Shown here piece by piece: positions 2,177 through 18,245 of a stretch of DNA of 45,475 nt. The stretch covers positions 1-45,475 of IMG/VR virus record IMGVR_UViG_3300046167_000168; one strand, 5' to 3'. Each line of letters begins with the position of its first letter. The first letter of the stretch is position 1. This DNA is from a virus. The notes beneath the pieces were generated by a model, which was given only the letters and a program-made list of their open reading frames with translations, did not search any database and had not been told where the DNA came from. The position numbers were made by a program, and so were the translations under genes.

Positions 2177-5100
2177 ATGTCGAAGAAAAGACAGACACGA
2201 AATTCTAAAAAGTTTAAAAAGGCTGCTGCGTCTCAGAGAGCTAGAGCGCCTATGCAAAAAGGCGGTCGAATGTTTGCTGGTGGCACATCAGGTTTTGATG
2301 AGCGCACAGGAACTATAAAACAAGCGCCAACTAAACAAGCGCCTATTACTAATCGAACAGGTGGTATTACACCTTCACAACCTCCCGGCAAGCGAGATCC
2401 TTCAGAAGGAACGCCTCGTCCTGCGCCAGTATCTACTGGAGTATCAACACGTCCAGATAATACAAGTGGTCAGTTGCCAGAGTTTACAGGGACTGTTCCA
2501 AACACAACGGCGACTGGTCGTGTTTTTCAGCCTACTACAACTACAAGAGTTCCTGTTGGTGATGATGCAGGTCAGCTTCCTCCTAGTGATGATGATGGAC
2601 AGGCTAAAGGACAAACACAAGCAGGGACTACTACAACAGACCAGAATACTTTTTCAGATTATCCTAATTTTGAAGATTTTAGTCAGGGTGTACAAGATCC
2701 AGCCTATATACAGGCTGTTCGAGATTGGAATGATGCCAATCCAGATGCTTTTCGAAATATTGGAAATATTCCAAACACAGACACAAATGGCGACGGTATT
2801 TCTGATACTTATGTTGCCAGCAACAACTTTGGTTTTGGAGGCACAGGCTCAGGTTCATCACAAGCTCCAATAGATCTTGAAATTAATCTTCCTGATCGTC
2901 CAGACCTTCCGCAAATGACGCCTGAAGATGTAGCCTATGGTCCAGACTCTGTAGCCTATCAAATGGCTGATACAGGCGATGCAAAAGTTACAAGGGCCGC
3001 AGCAACAAAGGCTACAGCAAAGCCAGACGGAGTAGCTGCACAAGCAGATGATCCTCGTGAAGTTGTTGGTTCTGGATATGACGCAGCAGTTGCAGATGGC
3101 GTTATGCCCGGAATAGGAATAGGTGGACAACTAAGCGAAGGCGCTATTGCACAATTTGAAGCAGGTGAGATTACTAAACCAGCTGTAGCGGCTGAAAGAG
3201 ATCCTCTTCAAGAAGCAGAAGCTAGGGCTGTTGCGGCTCAAAGGCCTGAAGCTCGTGATTATGCTGAAGCTGCTACAACCGATGAAAGATTTGAAGTAGC
3301 ACCTGTCGAAGGTCCAGCAGTAACTACGCGAGAAGGAAATGTAATTTCTGAAGATGAGCTAGGTGCTTTAAGACAAATAGCTCAAGGACGTGGAGTGCCT
3401 CTTGAAGATCTTCCAGAGTATAAGCTTGCACAACAAAGAGTAGCACAACAAGGTGAAGCAGCTACTGGTGAATATCGCTCACGTCTTGGACCAGCACCAC
3501 AAGAAGAAGCAGCAAGAGCAGAGTTCTTTGGTATAGATGAAACACCACAAGCCCGTCAGCAACGCATTGAACAGTTTGACTCGTTTAGTCCTGCAAAGCG
3601 TGAAGCATATACAGCTTTGGGTGTTGATGCTCCTGAAGCCGCACAAATGGAAGATGTTCGGCAAGCTGCTGCTGCAAGTCGTGAAGCTATTACGGCTGAT
3701 ACGCCTTCTGACGTTATTGCTCAACAAACAGATCTCGATCAGCTTGGCACATATCAAATGGTGGCAAGGCGTACAGCACAGGTTGCTGAAGCCGCTGAAG
3801 GCATTGCTGCTCAACTAGGTGGTCAGCCTGCAGTAGATCTTGAAGGTCGTCAAGCAATTCTTGGTGAGGCTCCTGCAGGTGATGCGGCTCAGATTGGTGG
3901 TATTCCAACTGCACAGGCCGCACAGATGCAAGCTGTTACAGGCCAAGAAAGACGTATGGCTGCAGCAGACATGGCAGCTGTTGTTGTTGAAATGCCTCCA
4001 GAAGTTACGGCTGCAATCTCAGAAGACCCTGCAACTGTTGAAGCACAACTTGATACTGGTGAAGACCCTCAAGTTGTAGCGGCTGTTGCAGCACTACCAG
4101 AAGAAGCACTTGTATCTACACAGATGGAAGGTCTTCTTGCTGGCATGGAAGACGGTGAAGTCCCAATGTGGGCACGACCAGCTGTAGATGCTATCAACGC
4201 TCAAATGGCTTCAAGAGGCCTTAGCACGTCTACTGTAGGACGAGATGCGTTGTTTAATGCAATCATACAGAGTGCGCTTCCAATGGCTCAGAGCAATGCT
4301 CAAGCCCTTCAGCAACGTGCTACACAGAACCTTAGTAATCAACAGCAAGCAAACATAGAGCAGTCTAAGCAAATTGCTAGTGTTCGTATGCAAAACCTTG
4401 CTAACCGTCAAACTGCTGCATCTCAAACAGCACAAATGGCACAACAAATTAAAGTGCAACAGGGCGAGTTCCGTCAGCAAGCACAAATACTGACAGCACA
4501 ACAAGAACAACAGTCTCGCATGGCTGATGTGCAGTTCCAACAACAGAGGGCACAACAAGAGTCTGCACAGCGTCAGCAGGCGGCTGTACAAAACTTGTCG
4601 GCTTCTCAGCAAATGGAGCTTGCAAACCTACAGGCCATTAACGCTTCTTCTGCTCAAAACCTTAGCGCAGAACAACAAACACGTCTTGCGTCTTATCAGG
4701 CACAAGTCAACCGTACTGTGCGTCAGGCTGAACTACAGCAGGACATGGAAAAAGCAAACCTTAGTACATCTCTTCAGGTTGAACTGAAGAACCTGTCTGA
4801 GCAAAATTTATCTGCTCGTGATACTATGACAGCTGAGAATCAAGAGCGTCTAACTAACTTACAGACTCTTGTAGATTTTAAAAAGACTAACGCACAGTTA
4901 GCACAGCAAATGGATTTAGCGAACTTATCTAATGATCAACAGGTTCGTCTTGCTAATCTTGCTGAAAAATCTGCTACAGACTCTGCAAACTTTACAGAAG
5001 CCAATCGTTTTGAGTTGACTAGACTTCAAACTAGTGCACAAGTATTGTCACAAAATACTCAGCTTCGTCAACAAGCAGAGCTTGCTAATCTTAGTACAGA

Positions 5101-6835
5101 AGAAAAAATTACCCTTGCAAACTTAACTGCACAGAACCAAGCATCAGCTGATAATCTTAACGCAGAACAGCAGGTTGAGTTAGCTAACTTAAATGCCCGA
5201 CTTCAAGAAGCTAGTCAAAATGCTCAAATGCGTCAGCAGATTATTACACAAGACTTTAGTCAAAGTCAACAAACTGAGCTTGCAAACCTTGAGGCGTTAA
5301 ATCGTGCAGGTTCTGAAAATCTTAATGCTGAACAGCAGGCAAAGTTAACAGAATACAATGCACAAGTCAACAGAAAAATACGTCAAGCAGAACTAAACCA
5401 ACAAACTGAAGGTGCAAATCTTGATGCTCGACTTAAGGTAGAGTTGTCAGAGCTTACAGAGCGTAATGCAACTTCTCGTGCAAACATGTCGGCTGAACAA
5501 CAGACACGTCTTGCAAATCTTAATGTTCTTGTTGACTTCCGAAAAACTGATGCACAGTTTGCTCAACAAATGGACATGGCAAACCTTGCTAATGAACAGC
5601 AGATGGAACTTGCAAACCTTCAGGAAAGAGCTTCAGCAGATGCTGCAAACTTTACTGAAGCTAACAGATTCCGTATGCAAGAGTTGAACAACTATGTTCA
5701 AACTATGTCACAAAACGAGCAGTTAGCACAACAAGCAGATCTTGCAAACCTTAGCATGGAAGAAAAGATTTCTCTTGCTAATCTTGATTCTAAGAATCGT
5801 GCAGACTCTGAGTCTATGTCGGCAGAAAACGTTGCAGAGCTTCAGCAGTATGAAAAGAAAATGCAAGCGGCTCAGGTTAATGCACAGCTTGCACAGCAGA
5901 TGGGCCTTGCAAATCTTAGCAATCAACAACAAGCTTCAATGTTTAATGCACAGATTGATGCTAATCTCGACATGGCTCAGTTTGATGCTAATCAGCAGGC
6001 TGCAATGGCTAACAGTCAGTTTATGCAATCAATGACTATGAAGGACTTTGATGCTCGTCAACAGTCTATTATGCAAAACGCAACAGCTATGGCCTCTATG
6101 GACATGGCAAACCTTGATGCTCAGACACGTTTGGCGGCTCAGAATGCTCAATCATTCCTTCAAATGGACATGGCTAATCTTAGCAACTCTCAACAAATGG
6201 CTGTGTTGAACCAACAACAAGCCCAACAAACTATGTTGTCAAATCAAGCTGCTGAAAATGCATCACGACAGTTTAATGCTGCTAATGAGCAACAAGCTAA
6301 TCAGTTTATGGCAAGTTTGTCATCTCAAACAGAACAGTTTAATGCTGCTCAATCAAATGCGATGAGTCAGTTTAACATCTCTGAACAGAATCGTATATCG
6401 GCTCAAAATGCTCAGAATGCTACACAAGTATCTCTTGCTAATGCACAAATGGCAACAGATATTTCAAAGTTTAATGAGACTATGGATCAACAGCGTGAGC
6501 AGTTTAATGTTTCAAATCAACAAGCAATCGAACAAGCCGATATTGCGTGGCGTCGTCAATCAAATACAATCAATACTGCGGCTCGTAATGCAGCTAATCA
6601 GCAGAATGTTATGAATGCTTTTAATCTTGAAATGTCAGAGCTTCAGTTCCTTTGGCAGGAAGCTCGTGATAATGCAGCATACACACGACAGGCCTACGAA
6701 AACGATCAGACTCGTAGGACTCAGTTGTATGCAACAGCCATTGGTAACGAGGCGGCTGCTAGTGGTGAAAAGAATTCAACGACAATCTCTGCAGTTGTTG
6801 GCGCAGTAGATAGAATATTAGGTCTTGGAGGTTAA
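2177..6835 (+). CDS. Giant hendecad-repeat virion protein
   Basis: 1552 residues. The ribosome binding site is GGGAG in aagggagaagtaagaaatg. The N-terminus is basic (MSKKRQTRNSKKFKKAA), then about 200 residues are proline/threonine-rich and disordered. Residues about 240-650 are alanine-rich helix, and residues about 650-700 hold a more conserved block (ARPAVDAINAQMASRGLSTS). From residue 705 to 1463 the protein is 69 consecutive 11-residue units with consensus like LANLSxEQQxE, with no break in register. The last ~90 residues resemble the repeats but decay. Eleven-residue repeats favour long right-handed or straight helical bundles, so this is likely a rod or internal fibre in the virion or ejection apparatus. 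It is followed three bases later by a membrane-active-looking protein. No enzyme motif is visible. Confidence 0.85.
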   Translation: MSKKRQTRNSKKFKKAAASQRARAPMQKGGRMFAGGTSGFDERTGTIKQAPTKQAPITNRTGGITPSQPPGKRDPSEGTPRPAPVSTGVSTRPDNTSGQLPEFTGTVPNTTATGRVFQPTTTTRVPVGDDAGQLPPSDDDGQAKGQTQAGTTTTDQNTFSDYPNFEDFSQGVQDPAYIQAVRDWNDANPDAFRNIGNIPNTDTNGDGISDTYVASNNFGFGGTGSGSSQAPIDLEINLPDRPDLPQMTPEDVAYGPDSVAYQMADTGDAKVTRAAATKATAKPDGVAAQADDPREVVGSGYDAAVADGVMPGIGIGGQLSEGAIAQFEAGEITKPAVAAERDPLQEAEARAVAAQRPEARDYAEAATTDERFEVAPVEGPAVTTREGNVISEDELGALRQIAQGRGVPLEDLPEYKLAQQRVAQQGEAATGEYRSRLGPAPQEEAARAEFFGIDETPQARQQRIEQFDSFSPAKREAYTALGVDAPEAAQMEDVRQAAAASREAITADTPSDVIAQQTDLDQLGTYQMVARRTAQVAEAAEGIAAQLGGQPAVDLEGRQAILGEAPAGDAAQIGGIPTAQAAQMQAVTGQERRMAAADMAAVVVEMPPEVTAAISEDPATVEAQLDTGEDPQVVAAVAALPEEALVSTQMEGLLAGMEDGEVPMWARPAVDAINAQMASRGLSTSTVGRDALFNAIIQSALPMAQSNAQALQQRATQNLSNQQQANIEQSKQIASVRMQNLANRQTAASQTAQMAQQIKVQQGEFRQQAQILTAQQEQQSRMADVQFQQQRAQQESAQRQQAAVQNLSASQQMELANLQAINASSAQNLSAEQQTRLASYQAQVNRTVRQAELQQDMEKANLSTSLQVELKNLSEQNLSARDTMTAENQERLTNLQTLVDFKKTNAQLAQQMDLANLSNDQQVRLANLAEKSATDSANFTEANRFELTRLQTSAQVLSQNTQLRQQAELANLSTEEKITLANLTAQNQASADNLNAEQQVELANLNARLQEASQNAQMRQQIITQDFSQSQQTELANLEALNRAGSENLNAEQQAKLTEYNAQVNRKIRQAELNQQTEGANLDARLKVELSELTERNATSRANMSAEQQTRLANLNVLVDFRKTDAQFAQQMDMANLANEQQMELANLQERASADAANFTEANRFRMQELNNYVQTMSQNEQLAQQADLANLSMEEKISLANLDSKNRADSESMSAENVAELQQYEKKMQAAQVNAQLAQQMGLANLSNQQQASMFNAQIDANLDMAQFDANQQAAMANSQFMQSMTMKDFDARQQSIMQNATAMASMDMANLDAQTRLAAQNAQSFLQMDMANLSNSQQMAVLNQQQAQQTMLSNQAAENASRQFNAANEQQANQFMASLSSQTEQFNAAQSNAMSQFNISEQNRISAQNAQNATQVSLANAQMATDISKFNETMDQQREQFNVSNQQAIEQADIAWRRQSNTINTAARNAANQQNVMNAFNLEMSELQFLWQEARDNAAYTRQAYENDQTRRTQLYATAIGNEAAASGEKNSTTISAVVGAVDRILGLGG
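4289..6565 (+). repeat. 69 x 33-bp (11-residue) hendecad repeat
   Basis: Protein residues 705-1463 of the giant virion protein divide exactly into 69 units of 11 residues, from QSNAQALQQRA to QADIAWRRQSN. Position 3 of the unit is most often N, positions 1 and 4 are usually hydrophobic, and Q is common at positions 8-9. Typical units are LANLSNDQQVR, LANLSTEEKIT, MANLANEQQME and QFNVSNQQAIE. I found no insertion or deletion across 2277 bases. Confidence 0.9.
4586..5905 (+). repeat. 660-bp tandem duplication (2 x 20 hendecads)
   Basis: Units 10-29 (4586-5245) and 30-49 (5246-5905) of the hendecad array align one to one at an offset of exactly 660 bases. Paired units include LASYQAQVNRT/LTEYNAQVNRK, VRQAELQQDME/IRQAELNQQTE, LTNLQTLVDFK/LANLNVLVDFR, SANFTEANRFE/AANFTEANRFR and LANLSTEEKIT/LANLSMEEKIS. 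The copies have diverged at the DNA level, so the duplication is old. Confidence 0.85.
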
Positions 6836-6837
6836 TA

Positions 6838-7992
6838 ATGGGATTTATTAAAAAAATTGGTAAAGGAATTAAAAGCGCCTTTAAAAAAATTGGTAAAGGA
6901 ATTAAGAGTGCTTTTAAATCTGTTGGTAAGTTCATGGATAAGATTGGCATTCTTGGTCAAATAGGCTTGTCTCTTTTGCTACCGGGAATAGGGTCAATGT
7001 TAAGTGGAGCTTGGGGAAGTTTAGTAGGAGGGTTACAAGCGTATGGAGGAGTAGGCTCTTCTATTGTTAATGGTGCTGGTAATTTTTTAAATGCCGCAAC
7101 TAAAGTTGCTTCAAATATTACAAAGCCTTTTACTACAATTACTGAAGGCGTTAAGAATGTTGTAGGTGAAACACTTAAGGCTGGTGCGAATGCGCTTGGT
7201 TTCGATAAAGCTGCTATATCACTAGGAAAAAAGTTTGGATCACAATATTTACAAGATCTTGGAGCTAATATTAGTAACGCTAATCTTACTTCAATTGGAG
7301 ATGCTTTTGACGAAGGCGTAGAAGGATTTTTGGGATCATTCTCTGGAGGCGGTGTTGACCCAACAGGTGCTTATGAAAAAGCTCGATTAGAGGCTACAAC
7401 TGCAAGTCCTGCTGAAATAGCAAGCATTACGCCTCCTACACCACAGTTTGCTGATCCAGATATTGTCACGCCTGATATGCCTGCAACTGTAGTAAAAACT
7501 GACTCTTTGTTATCTCCTGCCGTAGATGTAACTCCTCCTGTGGTGGGCGATCCTTCTGCGGTAGTTAATCGTCAGCTTATGACAGACGCAGAATTTTTGG
7601 ATATTGCACAGCCAGATTTTACTGATACTACTAAGCGTGGTTTTATTGAAAAAACTTACGACAGAGCAGTCACTGCCGCTACTAAAATGATTCAAGAAGC
7701 TCCTGAGAAAGCTATGGACAAACTAGGCTCAACGATTACTGATATGCCTTCTCAATTTGCTAGAAGGGCAGTAGGGCTTGATCCAGATCCAGTATTCAAC
7801 CAAGTGTCTTACGCTACTGTTGTTCCAACAATCCAAGAGGCTCCAATGGTAGGCTCGCAACCAATGATGGACCCAGTGCAGTACGTAGCTAATAATCAAG
7901 AATCAATGGCTCTACAGCCCTTTGGTCTCAACGCTAACATGTATAACGCGGCAACTTACATGAACACAATGCGTAAGTATGGTTTTGCATAA
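6838..7992 (+). CDS. Virion protein with amphipathic, membrane-active N-terminus
   Basis: 384 residues, starting three bases after the giant repeat protein. The N-terminus carries a perfect tandem repeat of the cationic amphipathic unit KKIGKGIKSAF (residues 5-26), then a hydrophobic glycine-rich stretch (about residues 38-75, GQIGLSLLLPGIGSMLSGAW). This pairing of a cationic helix and a hydrophobic helix is typical of membrane-inserting peptides. The middle is small-residue rich, then proline/valine rich; the C-terminus is helical (MYNAATYMNTMRKYGFA). With its neighbours it is likely an ejection protein that enters or lines the host envelope during DNA delivery. That role is inferred from position and composition, not homology. 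Confidence 0.78.
   Translation: MGFIKKIGKGIKSAFKKIGKGIKSAFKSVGKFMDKIGILGQIGLSLLLPGIGSMLSGAWGSLVGGLQAYGGVGSSIVNGAGNFLNAATKVASNITKPFTTITEGVKNVVGETLKAGANALGFDKAAISLGKKFGSQYLQDLGANISNANLTSIGDAFDEGVEGFLGSFSGGGVDPTGAYEKARLEATTASPAEIASITPPTPQFADPDIVTPDMPATVVKTDSLLSPAVDVTPPVVGDPSAVVNRQLMTDAEFLDIAQPDFTDTTKRGFIEKTYDRAVTAATKMIQEAPEKAMDKLGSTITDMPSQFARRAVGLDPDPVFNQVSYATVVPTIQEAPMVGSQPMMDPVQYVANNQESMALQPFGLNANMYNAATYMNTMRKYGFA
6850..6915 (+). repeat. Two tandem 33-bp repeats (KKIGKGIKSAF)
   Basis: Two adjacent 33-base units (6850-6882, 6883-6915) encode identical 11-residue peptides and differ at only three synonymous positions. They form the cationic amphipathic start of the virion protein. A degenerate third unit (KSVGKFMDKIG) follows. 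Confidence 0.9.
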
Positions 7993-8005: not shown

Positions 8006-8611
8006 ATGAACGAAGAATATAATCAAATGGTTTTAACAGGCGGAAGACCTATTCCGGGTCAAAGTCTAACAAGCGATCCTTCAAATCCAGCGCCGTATGA
8101 AAAACCTCCACAATATACTTCAGTTCATGAGGCGTCAGAAGATATTTTTGAAGGGCTTATCGAAGAGCAGGCGTATCAAGAGATTTTAAATTTGTTGACT
8201 GAGAATGTACCTGTCATGGACATTGTACAGACTCTTTTGTTTACTGGATTTAAAGAAGGCAAATGGAATCCTGATTTGATGCTGATGCTTGTTGAGCCTG
8301 TAGCTTATATGCTGTTGGCTCTTGCTGAACGTGCAGGACTTGATCCAAAGATCTACCAAGGCGAAGAAGACGACGACGCTGAAGAGCGCGTGTTGGGTGT
8401 TGAGTTTAGAAAAGAAAAGATATCTCGAATTAAAAAACTTGCTGAGATTGGTAAAGCACCTTCAAGCGCTATCACACCTGAGATGGTAGAGACAATAGAA
8501 GCATTGCCTGTTACAGAAGTGCCAAGTCTTATGGAGCGTCCTCCAGAGGCACAAGCCCCTACACAAGAAAGCCTAATGGCTCCTCCATCCGTTGAAGAGG
8601 AAGAAGTATAA
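8006..8611 (+). CDS. Virion-associated hypothetical protein
   Basis: 201 residues. AAGGAA precedes the ATG. The N-terminus is proline-rich (GGRPIPGQSLTSDPSNPAP), followed by a helical middle containing a hydrophobic run (about residues 90-105, PDLMLMLVEPVAYMLLALAE) and an acidic, proline-rich tail ending EEEEV. I recognise the N-terminal GQSLTSDPSNPAPYEKPP style from structural regions of other marine phages but know no function. The stop and the next start overlap by one base (TAATG), so it is co-translated with the next virion gene. Confidence 0.75.
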   Translation: MNEEYNQMVLTGGRPIPGQSLTSDPSNPAPYEKPPQYTSVHEASEDIFEGLIEEQAYQEILNLLTENVPVMDIVQTLLFTGFKEGKWNPDLMLMLVEPVAYMLLALAERAGLDPKIYQGEEDDDAEERVLGVEFRKEKISRIKKLAEIGKAPSSAITPEMVETIEALPVTEVPSLMERPPEAQAPTQESLMAPPSVEEEEV

Positions 8612-10014
8612 TGTCTATTGAACAGTTTGGTGAATCTCTTTTAGGAGATATTCGCAAAAGAAGAGAGCAAGAATCTCGAAGACTTCGAAAGCAAGAAGAG
8701 CGTCAGGCTCTTATGGGCTTGGGCATCGGGATTGCGGCTAAGATAGGTAACGAAAGGCTTGCTAATAAAACACAAGATTTTCTTAAGAAAGAAGAGTTCT
8801 TGTTGGGTCAGCAAGCTCAGAACACAGCACTTGGATACACTTCGCAGCTAAACAACTATCGCTCTGCTATTCAAAAAGGAGGGGACGGTTATTCTTCTGG
8901 AGACACGATAGGCTATGCAATGACTCAGTTTAAGCCAGAATTTGAAGCTCGTGCGAAAGAAGAACTGTCTAATGTATATATTAGTGATGTAAGAGCTTAC
9001 GACGCTAAAGTTCGCCAAGAAACAAAAAGAATGGCTGAAGAATGGGCTAGAGATTACGATCAAGCTATTTCGTTAGCTGATGAAGTTTTAGACAAAGATT
9101 CGTATTCAGCAATGGTTAAACTTCGTGCAACAAAAGCTAATCCAACAAACATGGGTGACTATATCACAAGAGGCATCTCAAGTCTCTTCGGAGGTAAGTC
9201 TCAAGAAGAGTTTGAAGAAGAAGCTTTTGAGGCCATCACTGACGAAATGGAAGACGCTAAAGAACTAAATACGTTTATGACAACTTTCCAGACCTTTGGA
9301 GACATGGTAAGAGCGTATGAGTTTACGAAAGATGTTTTTCCTCCAGAAGCTTTTAATGCTAATAAAACTGAAAAAGTTATAACAGAAGAAGATACTGTAG
9401 AGCGAGGGGATAATTTTTATCGTGTAAAAATTGAAACAAAACAAAATTTACTAGATCCTACTGAATCTTCAACTAAAACTGTAACGTATTTAGACAAGGA
9501 TAAAAACGGAAAAATACTGCCTGTCTTTGGCCCAGACCCTAAAGTAACTGCAGCTAATGAATTAAAAGCCCAGCTAGATATTTTTAATCCTGCCAAGCTT
9601 GCAGTTCAGGAATTTACTAAAGAGGGTTTTGCAGAATTTTTACGAATGGCACAAGAAGCAAATGTTGAAAATCCTTCTAATCCACAAAACACTGCAGAGT
9701 ATTTAGCAGTTTCAAATGTTTTTAATACTTTAGTTACACGCACTACAGGTACGGGAGTTTTGGACGATCCTTCTAGAAGAGAAATGATATCTGATTCTGT
9801 GAATGTTTTCATGACAGGAATTATAACTTCTGATATTATTAAAACGCAAGTGTCTGATAAATCTCCAGAAGAAAGAAATAGTGCCTTAGCAGATATAATG
9901 CGAAATATGTATAAAGCAGCCGAGGAAGTATATGGAACACCAGAATTTCCAGAGCTTGAAGACTACGGCTTTGTTTCATATTCAACAGTGGAAACTGCCA
10001 CACAGCAACAATAA
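8611..10014 (+). CDS. Virion-associated helical protein, probable ejection complex
   Basis: 467 residues starting at the TAATG overlap. The first ~60 residues are very basic and helical (RKRREQESRRLRKQEERQ), followed by mixed charged helix and a more globular C-terminal half. No cysteine pair, metal site or nuclease motif is visible. It sits between the amphipathic virion protein and the 1449-residue internal-virion-like protein, the usual place for the second or third ejection protein in short-tailed phages. I infer a packaged, DNA- or membrane-contacting structural role; the family is not one I can name. Confidence 0.72.
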   Translation: MSIEQFGESLLGDIRKRREQESRRLRKQEERQALMGLGIGIAAKIGNERLANKTQDFLKKEEFLLGQQAQNTALGYTSQLNNYRSAIQKGGDGYSSGDTIGYAMTQFKPEFEARAKEELSNVYISDVRAYDAKVRQETKRMAEEWARDYDQAISLADEVLDKDSYSAMVKLRATKANPTNMGDYITRGISSLFGGKSQEEFEEEAFEAITDEMEDAKELNTFMTTFQTFGDMVRAYEFTKDVFPPEAFNANKTEKVITEEDTVERGDNFYRVKIETKQNLLDPTESSTKTVTYLDKDKNGKILPVFGPDPKVTAANELKAQLDIFNPAKLAVQEFTKEGFAEFLRMAQEANVENPSNPQNTAEYLAVSNVFNTLVTRTTGTGVLDDPSRREMISDSVNVFMTGIITSDIIKTQVSDKSPEERNSALADIMRNMYKAAEEVYGTPEFPELEDYGFVSYSTVETATQQQ

Positions 10015-10036: not shown

Positions 10037-13000
10037 ATGTCTAGAGTTGTGCAAACACCTGATGGCAAGATAATGTATGGCGTTCCTAATAGTGTTTCTG
10101 ATGAAGAAGCAATTCAGAACTACTTATCAGCTAAGAATAGCGGCGTAACTGATTTTTCGTTGCCGAAGCCAGAGCCTGTTGTTGAAGAGCCAATGCCTGT
10201 TGTTGAAGAGAAAGAGGAAGAAACAAAAGCGCCTGTTGTATCTCAATCAGAAGCTCTTTTAAAAACTGCGGTCGAAGAAGATCCAAGCATTGCTACAGAC
10301 ATCGTTAGGGGTCTAACACAATACGGTCGTTTTGTTCCTAAAGTAATTACTGATGTGTTACCAACACCTTCAAAGTTTGAAAGCAGTGATCAGTTTATAA
10401 ATCAAACTACAAAAGCTTTTGCTCAAATGGTTACAGATATTATTCCGGGCGTTGAGTCTGAAGATGTCGTAACTGAAGAAGGCAAAGTAAAAGAAAGAGG
10501 CCTTGCAGGAGCAGCAGTACAAGTAGCGCCTTATATTGTTGGTGGAAGCATTATTCAAGGAAGTAAGTATGCAGCCAAAACACCAAGTTTAATTCGCGCT
10601 GCTGTTGAAGGGACGTTGTTGAGTCAGTTATTTTACACTGGAGATGAAGAAGAAACATTTTTCAATCTTTTAGAAAACGATGACATTACAAACGAATCTG
10701 CAAAAGCTTTAATTGAATTCATGTCTATTGATAAGGACGATACTGTACTTGAAGAAAGAGTAAAGTTGCTTGCAGAAAACGCCGTAGTTGGTGGCGGAGG
10801 GATGGCACTCTTAAAAATTATAGAGCGCACAGCACCTGCAGTTGTTGAAACTGTTAGAAAGCCTTTGTCTTCTCTTACTAAAAAAGAACAAGTCAAAGCA
10901 ATTGTAGATGGTCTAAAGATTAACAGAGATAAAGCTCCTTCAGCCTATGATCCTGCCAAAGTTACTGAATACATAAAAATTGATGAGGATGCTGCACAAG
11001 TATTCTTACAAAATAAATTTAGGCCAGACATGCCTTATACGTTCCATAGTGGACCTTTACGTCGTTTTATGCAGCGTACTTTTACTTCTCGTGGCTACTG
11101 GACACCTAAAGCTTTCAATGCTTTTAATGACGCAGCTTACGCACAGCGACAGATTGTTGCCCAAGCAGAGCATATTTCTAATAGACTTAAAAAGTCTTTA
11201 GACGATCTAAATAGCGACGTAAAAACTAAAACAGCGGCTACTAATGTTCAGCGGGCTTTGTCTGAAAATTTAGACTTTCCTCCAGATATGTCTGTAGAAA
11301 AACAAATTAGTCACATATCTCAAAAGTACAAAATTAATAATAACATTGCTACTGAGGTTGTCAATGCACGTAATCTTATTGACGATCTATCTGGAAAAAT
11401 TGTTAATTCAGATCTAGTCTCTTCAGACTTTAAAGAAACTATTGTCGATAACATGGGGATGTATATTCGTAGATCATACCGCATGTATGAAGATGCTGGG
11501 TATCGTCCCTCATCTGCTGCAGTAAAAGAAGCAACAGAATATTTTAGACAGCAAGCAAGGAATCTAGGAAAAACTGAGCTAGAAGAAATAGAAGTGTTTG
11601 CATCTAACAAAGTTCAAGAAGTTTTAAAAAGCATAAATAATATAGACGATAATAAAAAGTTTGAAAGTTACTACGACAAAGTTAGTAGATTAAACAAAAG
11701 TGTTTTACAAAAACGAGAAGAAATTCCTCAAGCAATTAGAAACTTGATGGGAGAAATAAAAAATCCTAGTGAAAATATTATTTTGACAGTTTCAAAACTT
11801 TCAAGGCTTACAGAAAATAATAGATTTTACAACGAGCTTTATCAGCTGGGCAAGGGTAAGTATATTTTCGATGAATCTAAAAGCAATGTAGGCGCAGATG
11901 TTGTTATCAGCGGAACTAACTCTTTTCTAGACGGTAAGTTTACTACAAAAGAACAGGTTACTGCTATACAAAACAAAGTAGCTCGACTGTCGGCTTTAGA
12001 TAATTCTTTTTTTACGGGGCTTGCTAATATAAAAGGCATGTCTCAAAAACAAAAAACCGTATATAGCCTTACTACACACGCTAGAAACATAACGGGAGGC
12101 GCACAGTTTGGTGCATTTAACGGAATAAATCCCTTTGCTCACGGTAATACAACAAGACAGGTGTTGTGGAACAGAATTAATAGGGGCGGGGATGCAGAGC
12201 TTGATGCTATGTATGAAAAGTATCTTCGTCTTGGAATCATAAATACTAGCGTAAGAGCTAATGAAACTCGTGAGCTATTAAAAATAGGCGCAGAAGCAGA
12301 CGCAGACACTTTTATTACTCGTCTAGGTCAAAAAGCTGTTGGTTATGGTGTGCCTAAAAAGCTAGTAGGAGTAACTGAAGCTGTTGATGATGCATTGACT
12401 AGCACATATATGGCTGTCGATGATTTTTATAAAATTAATATGTTTGAAAGTGAGTTAGCTACTTTTAAAAAAGCTTATCCTAATGAGTCTATAGAAGTTT
12501 TAGAAGAACAAAGTGCTTGGCTTGCTCAAAATATGATAGCAAACTATGATCGTGTTCCTCCTGCAATTAAACAACTTCGATATCTTCCTGTAGGTAACTT
12601 TGTTTCGTTTCCTGCAGAAATTATGCGTACCTCTGCAAACATGTTAAAACAGTCTGCAAAAGAAATTGGATCTGGAAATGCTGTTATAAGAAGAAGAGGG
12701 TTACAACGTCTTGCAGGAATAAGCACAGGAGCCTTTGGATTTACTTTAGGAGCAACGGCAACTTATCAGCTTGCTGGATTTGATTCAGAAGAGCAAAAAG
12801 CAATTGAAAGATTAGCGGCAACTCCTTGGTCTAAAGCGCCCAAGAATGTTGTTCGGATAGACGATAAGTTATATGTAAATGATACTCAGTATATAGATAG
12901 TTACAGCGCTGTGAAAGAACCTTTTGCAGAAATAGCTCGTCAAATAAAAGAAGGCGAACTAAAAGGTGAGCAGTTAGATGAAAGACTAGGCGATGCTATA

Positions 13001-14386
13001 TATCAAGGGATTACAAATATTTTAGCTCCTTACTTTGGTGAGTCTATGGTAACTGAAGCTGTCTTAGATGTTCAAAGTGCTATTAGAGGAAGCGGATATA
13101 CTAAAGACGGAAAAGAAATATCTGTCGAAGGAATGTCTTTTCTAGATACAGCTGCAGCATCTATGTATCATATATTTGAATCTTTTGAGCCCGGTACTTA
13201 CACTTCCTATAAAAACATTAAAGACGCTGTGGACGGTAAGCAACACCCTGTAACTGGAAAGATAAAAGATCCTTTCCTTGAAGCTGCTGGTTCTCTTACT
13301 GGCTTTAAACTTACTGAGTTTGATGCACGAGATTCTTTTAAGTACAAAGTAAAGGCATATGCCAGAAAGAAAAGAAACATGCTTTTAACTTCTCCTTCGT
13401 TTGGACAGCTTTCAACGGACATGGTTGATCGATATGTTTCTCGTCAAGAAGCATTATACAACATTCAACAAGAACTATACATGGATTACTTAGCTGCTGA
13501 TACATTAATAGGCGGCACTGCGGTTCAGATTATGCTTGATAACTTAGGTGATGAAGAAGCAGAAATGATAATTGCAGGTGTCTTTCGACAGGAGGACCAG
13601 CTGACCGATAAGAAACTTACTGGTGTTCTTGAGAAAATGAACATGGATTCTGAAAAGCATACTGATTACGTCAATAGAATTATTGAAGCGCAAACAAGAA
13701 TGTATTCAACGCCTCTAATGAATCCTGATCCAGATAGAGTAGATGAGATATTTAGTCGAGATACAGTTAAGCTTTTAGATACTTCTATGGAAGGCGTTAA
13801 AAATTTACCAACCGAAGAAGAAGCAATGCGAGGTAATTTTGCAAAAGGCGGCGAGGTCGTAGTACCTAACGCGCCTGTTGAACCTGATGAGCGTATTGAC
13901 AAGATGACGGGTCAGCCCTACAACATCCAAGCTGGATCAGCTTTCGTAGATGAAGAAGACCCTGAGAAGCGCATGTTGTTTAACGAAGGTGGTTTTGTTG
14001 ACAGGATTAAAAAAGCAGGCTATGACGCAGCTGTAAAGGCCTTGGGAATTCCTAAAGAAGGGCTTGAGTGGGCAATGAATATAGATAAAAATTACCCTGA
14101 AAACGAGCAGCTTGACGGTCGTGGAGACGCTGCAAGACACTTAGCCCTAGGCGTTATTGCTCAAAAATCTGACTATCCCGAAACAACTAGATTCCTTGCA
14201 CACTTGAGAGAGTTTATTGAGCTTGATATTAAGGGTGGGGCTATGGACATAGAGAACAACAACAAAGGGTTTAACATTGAAGCTGATAGCTATGAAGAAG
14301 CTGAAAGAAAAATTGATAAGATGATTCGTAATGGAGAAGTAACATATCTTACTCCTGACGAAAGCATAGCTAATCGAGGATACTAA
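10037..14386 (+). CDS. Large internal virion (ejection) protein
   Basis: 1449 residues, the size class of T7 gp16-type core proteins. Residues about 40-75 are a proline/glutamate linker (EPVVEEPMPVVEEKEEE). Hydrophobic alanine/glycine stretches at about residues 160-182 and 248-265 (KLLAENAVVGGGGMALLKII) could contact membrane. The bulk is long charged helix with a further small-residue segment around 905-925 (LAGISTGAFGFTLGATATYQ). Near the end are two GG motifs (FAKGGEVVVP, MLFNEGGFV) and a C-terminal globular domain with a D-A-A-R-H motif (GRGDAARHLALGVIA). I see no lytic transglycosylase signature at the N-terminus, unlike T7 gp16. The C-terminal domain may be separate in function; whether it is enzymatic is unclear. 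Confidence 0.8.
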   Translation: MSRVVQTPDGKIMYGVPNSVSDEEAIQNYLSAKNSGVTDFSLPKPEPVVEEPMPVVEEKEEETKAPVVSQSEALLKTAVEEDPSIATDIVRGLTQYGRFVPKVITDVLPTPSKFESSDQFINQTTKAFAQMVTDIIPGVESEDVVTEEGKVKERGLAGAAVQVAPYIVGGSIIQGSKYAAKTPSLIRAAVEGTLLSQLFYTGDEEETFFNLLENDDITNESAKALIEFMSIDKDDTVLEERVKLLAENAVVGGGGMALLKIIERTAPAVVETVRKPLSSLTKKEQVKAIVDGLKINRDKAPSAYDPAKVTEYIKIDEDAAQVFLQNKFRPDMPYTFHSGPLRRFMQRTFTSRGYWTPKAFNAFNDAAYAQRQIVAQAEHISNRLKKSLDDLNSDVKTKTAATNVQRALSENLDFPPDMSVEKQISHISQKYKINNNIATEVVNARNLIDDLSGKIVNSDLVSSDFKETIVDNMGMYIRRSYRMYEDAGYRPSSAAVKEATEYFRQQARNLGKTELEEIEVFASNKVQEVLKSINNIDDNKKFESYYDKVSRLNKSVLQKREEIPQAIRNLMGEIKNPSENIILTVSKLSRLTENNRFYNELYQLGKGKYIFDESKSNVGADVVISGTNSFLDGKFTTKEQVTAIQNKVARLSALDNSFFTGLANIKGMSQKQKTVYSLTTHARNITGGAQFGAFNGINPFAHGNTTRQVLWNRINRGGDAELDAMYEKYLRLGIINTSVRANETRELLKIGAEADADTFITRLGQKAVGYGVPKKLVGVTEAVDDALTSTYMAVDDFYKINMFESELATFKKAYPNESIEVLEEQSAWLAQNMIANYDRVPPAIKQLRYLPVGNFVSFPAEIMRTSANMLKQSAKEIGSGNAVIRRRGLQRLAGISTGAFGFTLGATATYQLAGFDSEEQKAIERLAATPWSKAPKNVVRIDDKLYVNDTQYIDSYSAVKEPFAEIARQIKEGELKGEQLDERLGDAIYQGITNILAPYFGESMVTEAVLDVQSAIRGSGYTKDGKEISVEGMSFLDTAAASMYHIFESFEPGTYTSYKNIKDAVDGKQHPVTGKIKDPFLEAAGSLTGFKLTEFDARDSFKYKVKAYARKKRNMLLTSPSFGQLSTDMVDRYVSRQEALYNIQQELYMDYLAADTLIGGTAVQIMLDNLGDEEAEMIIAGVFRQEDQLTDKKLTGVLEKMNMDSEKHTDYVNRIIEAQTRMYSTPLMNPDPDRVDEIFSRDTVKLLDTSMEGVKNLPTEEEAMRGNFAKGGEVVVPNAPVEPDERIDKMTGQPYNIQAGSAFVDEEDPEKRMLFNEGGFVDRIKKAGYDAAVKALGIPKEGLEWAMNIDKNYPENEQLDGRGDAARHLALGVIAQKSDYPETTRFLAHLREFIELDIKGGAMDIENNNKGFNIEADSYEEAERKIDKMIRNGEVTYLTPDESIANRGY

Positions 14387-14388
14387 TA

Positions 14389-14814
14389 ATGAAAAGACTC
14401 ATAGAAACTCTAAAGCGTCATGAAGGCGTCAAGTACTATGTCTACAAAGACCACTTAGGCTACGAAACTATTGGCGTCGGTCGTTGTTTAAAAGAAGGCG
14501 TAGGCTTAGGGCTTACTCACGACGAAGTAGACTACCTTCTAATGAATGATATTAATCGTTGTCTCGAAGAGCTAGACGCGGCTTTTCCGTGGTTCAAAGA
14601 TCTTACAGAGATCCGAAGAGAGGCAATGATAAACCTGTGTTTTAACTTAGGACTCACACGTCTCAGAAAGTTTGAGAAGGCTTTGGCAGCTATGTCAATT
14701 CACAACTACGAAGAAGCAGCCGATGAATTCTTAGACAGTCGATGGGCTAAACAAGTAGGCAATCGAGCAAAAGAGGTTACTGAGATGATACGTACTGGAG
14801 AGCAGCATGCCTAA
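14389..14814 (+). CDS. T4-type lysozyme (glycoside hydrolase family 24 endolysin)
   Basis: 141 residues. It hydrolyses the N-acetylmuramic acid/N-acetylglucosamine bond of peptidoglycan for lysis. The catalytic triad of T4 lysozyme (E11, D20, T26) is present with the same spacing as E12, D21 and T27 in RHEGVKYYVYKDHLGYETIG, followed by the GVG turn; NLCFNLG is the second conserved helix. There is no signal peptide, so export depends on a holin (candidates at 1675 and 15293). AGGA lies upstream of the ATG, two bases after the previous stop. The length is slightly shorter than T4 lysozyme (164), consistent with a single-domain enzyme. Confidence 0.93.
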   Translation: MKRLIETLKRHEGVKYYVYKDHLGYETIGVGRCLKEGVGLGLTHDEVDYLLMNDINRCLEELDAAFPWFKDLTEIRREAMINLCFNLGLTRLRKFEKALAAMSIHNYEEAADEFLDSRWAKQVGNRAKEVTEMIRTGEQHA

Positions 14815-16371: not shown

Positions 16372-17289
16372 TTATATCTCACAGTTATTACCAGTACATG
16401 CAAGCGTCTGTGATCCTTCTGTCATATCACTTTCTTCAGTAATGTCCCACGACATTTCAGTAGGAAAATCAGCAACCAGTGTTTCATATTCTTCTTCACT
16501 GATAGGCTCATAAGGTGCTTGTTGATATGTGTGCTCGCTATATGGTAAGAAACTAATACCACTAATCTTGTCAAACTTATTGTACAACCACTGGCCTACC
16601 TCAAGGAACTCGTCGTCACGATAGTAACACGTCATTGAAGGCTTGTGTTCACACCAAAAGTCTTGGTAGATTTCCCAAAGCTCAAGCTGTTCCATAGCAC
16701 CCATCTCAGAGGCCGTCACAGCCCCGTCAGGAGACTTTATAGGAAAGGAGAATACCTTAGTACTAGGAGACATTACATCGTCTTCTACGGGGATTCCTGA
16801 GGCTTCAAGGACTTGGCAGAGGGGGTCTCTAGAGTCTGCTCGAACTCGTCTAATGTATTGAGATGAATATCTAGGGTGGATTCCACTCGCGCTATCAACA
16901 AGCTGACTAACAGTGCCGCTAGGCTTAATGGCGGTAATAGCAGTAGAAACTTCAATACCAAGAATATCAGCCCATCGTCTGTTGGTTTCGACGGCTTCTT
17001 CGCGTAGTTCTGTGAGCCACGTCTTAAGGACACCTTTGTCTCTCCTTCCCGACAACGTCGGATGATCCATAATGCCTGTTAAGCTAACGCCCAACAAGGC
17101 CTCTTCTTCTGTGTTGTTCTTCCACACCTTTCTCAAGTATCTGAAATTGGTAAGGGTAGCTTGTAAAGTTCCAAGGATAGTCGCAGTACGTACTTTCCGT
17201 TTGAGGTCTGAGAGACTATCGGACGACCTGACAACAACCTCTGATAGATTGCAGAATTGGTAGGGTCCGTAAGATGATTTCGCTAGCAT
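16372..17289 (-). CDS. nrdJ: Class II ribonucleotide reductase, C-terminal fragment
   Basis: 305 residues starting at the ATG at 17289, whose first seven bases (ATGCTAG) overlap the stop of the N-terminal fragment. It begins MLAKSSYG, then rejoins the family exactly at PYQFCNLSEVVVR. C13 is equivalent to redox Cys419 of Lactobacillus leichmannii RNR. Further family blocks are LLGVSLTGIMDHP, the phosphate-loop region IKPSGTVSQLVDSASGIHPR, and the C-terminal CX4C shuttle (C298 and C303, CTGNNC). Together with the upstream fragment it should reduce ribonucleotides using adenosylcobalamin. The conserved GEIILR loop is not encoded in this frame but is present out of frame just before PYQFC. Either a genes-in-pieces enzyme or frame errors in the sequence. 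Confidence 0.85.
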   Translation of the reverse strand: MLAKSSYGPYQFCNLSEVVVRSSDSLSDLKRKVRTATILGTLQATLTNFRYLRKVWKNNTEEEALLGVSLTGIMDHPTLSGRRDKGVLKTWLTELREEAVETNRRWADILGIEVSTAITAIKPSGTVSQLVDSASGIHPRYSSQYIRRVRADSRDPLCQVLEASGIPVEDDVMSPSTKVFSFPIKSPDGAVTASEMGAMEQLELWEIYQDFWCEHKPSMTCYYRDDEFLEVGQWLYNKFDKISGISFLPYSEHTYQQAPYEPISEEEYETLVADFPTEMSWDITEESDMTEGSQTLACTGNNCEI

Positions 17290-18245
17290 GGATTAGTTCC
17301 AAAGTCATAGGTAGCATCTCTTCGCTCGTTCTTTGCAGCTTGCTTTTGACTTGCGACTCTAGAGAACATACCTCGCTCTCCTGAACGGGACTCGTATAAA
17401 CTTTTCCACTCATTTAAAAATGCCTCAAAGTCTGGCTTCTCTGTATAACATGCACTATTGTTCGCTAGTCCCCGTTGGGGATTATCTTGCCACCACTGGC
17501 CTGACTTGCATCGTCGGAGTCTATCGTCAGTGAGGTTAGATAAACTGATGAGAGCGGACCTGCGTACACCGCCGACGACGACGATCTGTGCAATCTTACA
17601 GCAGAGATCATGACATTCGATGGAACTAAGTTTACGTCCAGCAGCCTCCCGAAAGACGCTGACTGTGAAGTTGAACAGATCGACAAGAGGCTCTGGACCA
17701 GACGCTCTACCTCCAAAGGTTTTAAGGGCTGCCCCTGCAGATCGTACTCCAGACACGTCCCATTTTGGAAGTTGACCTGAATAGAGCAAGCTAACAAGTT
17801 CCCTGTAAGCTTTAGCCCATCCAATTTTACTGTCGGCGACATGTATAACGGTATCGGTTTCATGGAATTCCTCTGCTACTTCTGGTAATTTTGTTACGTA
17901 CTGACGCTCAACAGAGAAGCCTACGCCTGTACCACACATCAAGACGTACATCATTTCGTCAAACGCTTTTGGGTGGTCGATAGGCATATAACTACAGTTG
18001 AAGCCAGCAACATTATCACGATCCAGCGCTTCACCAGCAGTCATCAAAGCCCTCATACTGGGCATAACATCTAAGCTGTGGATGTCTGCAAACATTCCGT
18101 TAGCCTGCTCTAGTGTTAGCTTACCCTTCTCAATCCAGAAGTTCAAGTACCTGTCGATTGTTTCTTCCCAAGTCTCGCGCCGCTGTTCTTCTGGTAGGTA
18201 ACGTGCGTATCGTGACTTGTGAATGTATTGTTGATATAGATCCAT
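17283..18245 (-). CDS. nrdJ: Class II ribonucleotide reductase, N-terminal fragment
   Basis: 320 residues. AAGGAG lies seven bases upstream of the ATG, and the start overlaps the preceding stop (TAATG). The fragment has the class II monomeric reductase N-terminal half: MPSMRALMTAG, GFNCSYMPID (C84, equivalent to redox Cys119), MCGTGVGFSVER, and the thiyl-radical loop FGTNPC, where C320 (equivalent to Cys408) is the very last residue before a TAG. A complete family member would continue GEIILRP. The reaction is nucleotide to deoxynucleotide, feeding phage DNA synthesis and using cobalamin instead of an iron cofactor, as in many marine phages. Alone, this fragment lacks Cys419 and the C-terminal shuttle cysteines, so it cannot be active without the second fragment. 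Confidence 0.87.
   Translation of the reverse strand: MDLYQQYIHKSRYARYLPEEQRRETWEETIDRYLNFWIEKGKLTLEQANGMFADIHSLDVMPSMRALMTAGEALDRDNVAGFNCSYMPIDHPKAFDEMMYVLMCGTGVGFSVERQYVTKLPEVAEEFHETDTVIHVADSKIGWAKAYRELVSLLYSGQLPKWDVSGVRSAGAALKTFGGRASGPEPLVDLFNFTVSVFREAAGRKLSSIECHDLCCKIAQIVVVGGVRRSALISLSNLTDDRLRRCKSGQWWQDNPQRGLANNSACYTEKPDFEAFLNEWKSLYESRSGERGMFSRVASQKQAAKNERRDATYDFGTNPC

Follow-up and report, generated by a model that had tools for sequence, protein, structure and literature searches.

The hendecad-array gene and its neighborhood

The window, meaning the whole stretch of 45,475 bases analyzed here, is the IMG/VR record of a marine short-tailed phage and carries a terminase, a portal, a major head protein, and a tail spike-like gene, together with a family A DNA polymerase and a T7-type helicase-primase. 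Its terminase is closest to those of the Pelagibacter phages HTVC115P (67.5%), HTVC103P, and HTVC104P and next closest to those of HMO-2011-type roseophages. Host or prophage assignment through bacterial genomes was rejected, as only nine matches were found, every one of them in MAGs. Near one end of the window lies a long open reading frame (ORF) dominated by 11-residue repeat units (hendecads), followed by a cassette of further genes:

2177-6835, plus strand: hendecad-array ORF, 1552 aa, with the same layout in homologues from 26 isolate records and >200 IMG/VR loci
2177-4096, plus strand: N-terminal ~640 aa, Pro/Gly/Thr/Ala-rich in composition and poorly conserved in length
4097-4288, plus strand: helical cap preceding the array, PxWAxPAVxAINAQMAxRGLSxSTVGRDALFNAIIQSALPMA, with near-invariant columns in alignments A1, A3, and A5
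4289-4585, plus strand: array part 1, 9 hendecads, aa 705-803
4586-5905, plus strand: array part 2, eight 55-aa superrepeats of 5 hendecads each, two types alternating, aa 804-1243, in the same phase in relatives
5906-6565, plus strand: array part 3, 20 hendecads, aa 1244-1463, common to HMO-2011-type relatives
6566-6835, plus strand: conserved C-terminal tail, aa 1464-1552, FLWQEARDNAAYTRQAYEND (alignments A1, A3, and A5)
6838-7992, plus strand: 384-aa protein whose N terminus is basic and amphipathic, MGFIKKIGKGIKSAFKKIGKGIKSAFK; weak matches to tape-measure profiles (E 2e-5) and a match to HTVC115P gp45
8006-8611, plus strand: 201-aa protein placed where T7/P22 have their ~200-aa ejection protein, homologous in 8/8 isolates tested
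8611-10014, plus strand: 467-aa cassette protein in the gp15/gp20 position
10037-14386, plus strand: 1449-aa virion structural protein in the gp16 position (phrog_22602, E 4e-27)
14389-14814, plus strand: phage lysozyme at the cassette end (PF00959, E 2e-13; phrog_7, phrog_2083)

Judging by its composition, the N-terminal region of the hendecad protein is probably disordered, and distant relatives align only from about aa 480-610 on. Neither the array protein nor its relatives matched a Pfam, PHROG, or PDB family, and the closest homologues (HMO-2011 gp25/ADW08438, HTVC115P gp47, CHOED gp13, and the CRP and phiM6 homologues) are all recorded as "hypothetical protein." The window's protein nevertheless shares its cap, hendecad frame, C-terminal tail, and gene order with the HMO-2011-type homologues: the N cap and C tail flank an in-frame array, upstream of the ~200-aa, medium, and large cassette genes. 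It thus belongs to a real, conserved, and unusually regular family that has gone without annotation. The members differ in their arrays, which are fixed at ~21 units in the HMO-2011 clade and at 29 units in the HTVC115P-like phages, compared with 69 in the window, and the 55-aa superrepeats occur only in the window's clade, not in the other HMO-2011-type homologues. The HMO-2011-clade homologues (gp25, L001 11044-13164) also have an extra C-terminal domain, CWVAREVYG..W..FR.WL..AP.W, that is missing from the window's protein.

The 384-aa protein encoded immediately downstream is kept in the clade, with 93 homologues of similar length. Its repeated basic amphipathic N terminus, IKKIGKGIKSAFKKIGKGIKSAFK, has the look of a membrane-active segment. 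In HTVC115P (L002 13486-13935), the gene directly after the hendecad gene is gp46, annotated as a toxin-activating lysine-acyltransferase. The 201-aa protein is the most conserved and most widespread member of the cassette; it had no PHROG, Pfam, or PDB match, and the 467-aa protein had no confident structural match. Three relatives of the 1449-aa protein match the endolysin family phrog_7348. The gene order (hendecad protein, ~200 aa, ~470 aa, ~800-1900 aa, and often lysozyme) is kept in phage isolates of SAR11, SAR116, Roseobacter, Vibrio, Aeromonas, Pseudoalteromonas, and Sinorhizobium.

The 11-residue frame and the 110-residue length steps

The in-frame translation of positions 4289 to 6565 gives 759 aa, or 69 x 11 (aa 705-1463), exactly the number of units that the initial annotation had counted. 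The array is Gln/Asn-rich and almost without Pro and Gly, there being no Pro over the 759 aa. Asn occupies unit position 3 in 47/69 units, and Gln occupies position 8 in 33/69 and position 9 in 40/69, which bears out the positional preferences that had been noted by eye. The power at 11/3 residues was 19.2 for Asn and 35.5 for Gln, whereas 200 shuffles gave no more than 4.4 and 5.2, respectively. Self-identity reached 0.21 to 0.33 at lags of 11, 22, 33, 44, 55, 110, and 220 aa, compared with ~0.05 to 0.13 at other lags, with peaks at 220, 528, and 55 aa. Array length was measured from a conserved N-anchor (ending ..SALPMA) to a C-anchor (N..WRR), and it equaled 8 mod 11 in 206/206 distinct homologous arrays. 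The 11-residue frame is therefore real and maintained, and in this exact periodicity the array agrees with a canonical hendecad coiled coil.

The array had also been described as unbroken. This is true of its frame but not of its content, which is not homogeneous: 9 hendecads are followed by the eight 55-aa superrepeats and then by 20 hendecads. The 55/110-aa higher order within the array is new, and its most informative aspect is the 110-aa quantum. Of the 121 arrays of at least 300 aa, 120 have lengths of 316 + 110k aa, with k from 0 to 7 (316, 426, 536, 646, 756, 866, 976, and 1086 aa); the window's array measures 756 aa between anchors. It follows that 55-aa superrepeats come only in even numbers, from 0 to 14. 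The sole exception (L018, 569 aa) carries three additional hendecads in its C-terminal portion. Since all 75+ sequences of the HMO-2011 clade measure 228 aa and more distant relatives (162, 173, 184, 239, and 250 aa) vary by one or a few hendecads, the 110-aa rule is specific to the superrepeat clade.

On a flank-based tree of 104 sequences, from which the variable middle was excluded, parsimony required ~33 length changes, although recombination between flank and array could inflate this count of independent events. In unit-level alignments, close pairs differed by single 10- or 20-unit blocks, at differing sites; in more distant pairs a 10-unit difference was sometimes split 5 + 5 by the aligner, an ambiguous result. 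Assembly collapse was rejected as a source of the 330-bp steps: no long repeat pair within the window's array exceeds ~75% over 76 nt, and no long array was detected by Tandem Repeats Finder.

The 110-aa quantum might simply reflect the unit in which a neutral tandem repeat was duplicated in the past, without structural meaning and compatible with any role of the protein. Superrepeats separated by even lags are slightly more alike in their DNA (identity 0.489 at 110 aa and 0.528 at 220 aa) than those separated by odd ones (0.467 at 55 aa and 0.461 at 165 aa), and inserted blocks find their best DNA match at 220 or 110 aa, so that a history of 110/220-aa duplications contributes. However, these differences are small, and 55-aa slips should accordingly be almost as easy; among the ~33 inferred changes there was no 55-aa change. 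In addition, no pair of superrepeats exceeds 81% DNA identity (the maximum, 0.81, occurs at lag 220), and whole-array DNA identity is the same at lags of 165 and 330 bp. Overall identity between superrepeats is similar whether they lie one, two, or three repeats apart (0.332, 0.347, and 0.337), but odd and even superrepeats differ at specific positions, such as 8 (Gln versus Leu/Glu) and 51 (Lys/Arg/Gln versus Ala). Structural constraint, while not proven, is the simpler reading of the step, and we regard a purely historical quantum as unlikely, though it deserves to be taken seriously.

Helix faces and helix breaks

The initial annotation expected a hydrophobic period of 3.67 residues. Over the whole array this peak is weak, with a power of 0.7 on the Kyte-Doolittle scale and 5.4 for LIVMFYW (shuffle maximum, 6.6), and the dominant hydrophobic periods are 2.75 and 2.2 residues. 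The expectation is partly rescued by the superrepeats, where the LIVMFYW power at 3.67 rises to 11.8, still below 32.8 at 2.75 and 28.0 at 2.2. The single apolar stripe of a canonical hendecad coiled coil was not found over the whole array.

We folded the 11 unit positions onto an 11/3 helix, counting Leu, Ile, Val, Met, Phe, Tyr, Trp, and Ala as apolar. The first helical harmonic of the apolar residues was 0.04 and the second was 1.39, and two opposed apolar seams run near 133 and 313 degrees. It is because the apolar residues form these two seams on opposite sides of the helix that the 3.67-residue peak is weak. Gln is centered at 35 degrees, opposite charge (232 degrees) and Asn (197 degrees). 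The 55-aa superrepeat as a whole shows the two-seam pattern as well (second harmonic, P = 0.0002), as does its long helix (P = 0.005). The ordinary hendecad coiled coil first envisaged is thus not supported, the single apolar stripe being nearly absent and two opposed seams standing in its place. On general coiled-coil principles, a two-seam helix would pack between two neighbors and so favor sheets, layered bundles, or barrels over a simple dimeric coiled coil. The seam angle on the Gln side, estimated from the position values at ~171 to 177 degrees, is indistinguishable from flat, and we therefore claim no oligomer number; the geometry is as compatible with a flat sheet as with a tube.

Across 160 distinct superrepeats, Ser, Thr, Asn, Asp, or Gly is found at position 25 in 97%, at position 27 in 93%, at position 5 in 90%, and at position 3 in 89%. 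These residues look typical of helix N-caps, and the positions recur every 22/33 aa, that is, twice per 55 aa. Gly maxima lie at superrepeat positions 55, 5, and 22. An AlphaFold2 monomer of aa 641 to 1552 had low confidence (pLDDT 48.8, pTM 0.22); within its superrepeats, 14/14 predicted breaks fell at positions 3 to 5 or 21 to 28, giving predicted helices of ~17 and ~30 residues. Because AlphaFold2 reads the same sequence motifs, these breaks are supporting rather than independent evidence for the caps. The monomer of a 39-unit relative was predicted, again with low confidence (pLDDT 48.2, pTM 0.23), to form long helices, and both models were nearly all helical. A Foldseek search of the AlphaFold2 model against the PDB gave no match with an E value of ≤0.001, as is to be expected of a low-confidence model.

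A candidate role in genome ejection

The ejection operons of T7 (gp14-gp15-gp16) and P22 (gp7-gp20-gp16) are ordered small, medium, large (PMC8954989). The window's cassette has the same order and likewise a peptidoglycan hydrolase nearby, and the hendecad gene lies within this small-medium-large internal virion cluster, as a podovirus ejection-protein gene would. No hendecad-array protein is listed among the three ejection proteins of T7 and P22 (PMC8954989); searches for homology to those three gave no PDB profile match for the array protein and none that was credible for its neighbors.

Given a cassette order like that of the T7/P22 operons and a large member with endolysin relatives, a role in the ejection cassette is the best supported. 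We tentatively propose, at somewhat less than even confidence, that the hendecad protein serves HMO-2011-type short-tailed phages as an extra, fourth protein of the ejection cassette and is folded as a stack of bifacial helices. Its gene position suggests that it is a virion protein; in the literature examined we found no proteomic report of it in HMO-2011-type virions. On this proposal, the head would hold the protein until it leaves together with the other internal proteins. The array would form a folded stack of bifacial alpha-helices, with one leg of ~17 + 30 helical residues for each 55-aa superrepeat and a pair of superrepeats (110 aa) as the modular unit, in which case 110 aa would be a structural and not merely a historical unit. 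With apolar seams along both flanks, a Gln-rich side, and a charged/Asn-rich side, many such helices, whether contributed by a single chain or by several copies, could line up next to one another as a sheet, sheath, or tube, lengthening the short tail across the envelope and presenting an uncharged amide surface to the DNA. The stepwise lengths point to such a folded, modular DNA-delivery part over one giant straight fiber. The several-fold variation in array length, in exact 110-aa steps, also offers a natural series (0 to 7 blocks) on length in genome delivery.

The position of the gene is equally that of core proteins, and the hendecad protein might instead remain in the head as an internal core or scaffold component, organizing the DNA or the portal region around the ejection proteins and forming no part of a conduit, with the 110-aa blocks as spacers. 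The tolerated range of 0 to 7 blocks is spacer-like, and a long N terminus predicted to be disordered is consistent with this role, but the exact quantum is stricter than a spacer requires, and we think the alternative distinctly unlikely.

For a conduit, a parallel is available in phiX174 H, whose hendecad helices, with an amide-lined lumen, can pass DNA and whose proposed role is genome passage (PMC7354561). Like H, the array has hendecad helices with one Gln/Asn-rich face, here the Gln face opposite charge and Asn. Unlike it, the array runs to 69 hendecads, whereas H has 3 hendecads followed by heptads, and a tube domain of 121 aa, and phiX174 is an ssDNA microvirus while the window's virus is a dsDNA podovirus. 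In its best register, H aligned its lumen Gln residues with array positions 9 and 5, which are Gln-rich, but the match was not significant (P = 0.20); we therefore rejected homology, and H stays a functional analogy only. By that analogy, bifacial helices possibly line a conduit, and the ejection conduit suggested in the initial annotation is the leading but unproven reading of the array protein. A more specific version, in which hairpins of bifacial hendecad helices build an amide-lined tube whose size is tuned in 110-aa hairpin quanta (0 to 7 blocks), would account for the even number of superrepeats, since only even numbers of 55-aa legs keep the chain ends on the same side. We give this version a low probability. 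If true, a phage group that ranks among the most abundant in the ocean would have an ejection protein of a new class.

The initial annotation had also considered a continuous helix of >100 nm. A continuous hendecad coiled-coil fiber or internal rod would be ~114 nm long, which is longer than a podovirus head. Its attractions are a frame that runs uninterrupted across 759 aa lacking Pro, two nearly all-helical (predicted) models, and some LIVMFYW power at 3.67 in the superrepeats. However, the single apolar stripe is almost gone once Ala is counted, N-cap positions recur every 22/33 aa, and the low-confidence AlphaFold2 breaks fall exactly at those caps, making a continuous fiber quite improbable. 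The same caps, breaks, and paired seams favor the better half of that early suggestion, that so long a helix must be folded or bundled, and the array may serve as a compact model for hendecad helix packing. A tail-associated fiber, sheath, or adsorption appendage, suggested by the tail fiber annotation of the genes upstream in HMO-2011 and CHOED, is very doubtful given the lack of a Pfam/PHROG tail-fiber match and the high conservation of array and caps, fibers usually being variable.

Elsewhere in the window, two adjacent ORFs of 305 and 320 aa lie on the minus strand at 16372-18245. The 320-aa product matches B12-dependent ribonucleotide reductase (RNR) domains, and the pair may represent a split or interrupted RNR gene.
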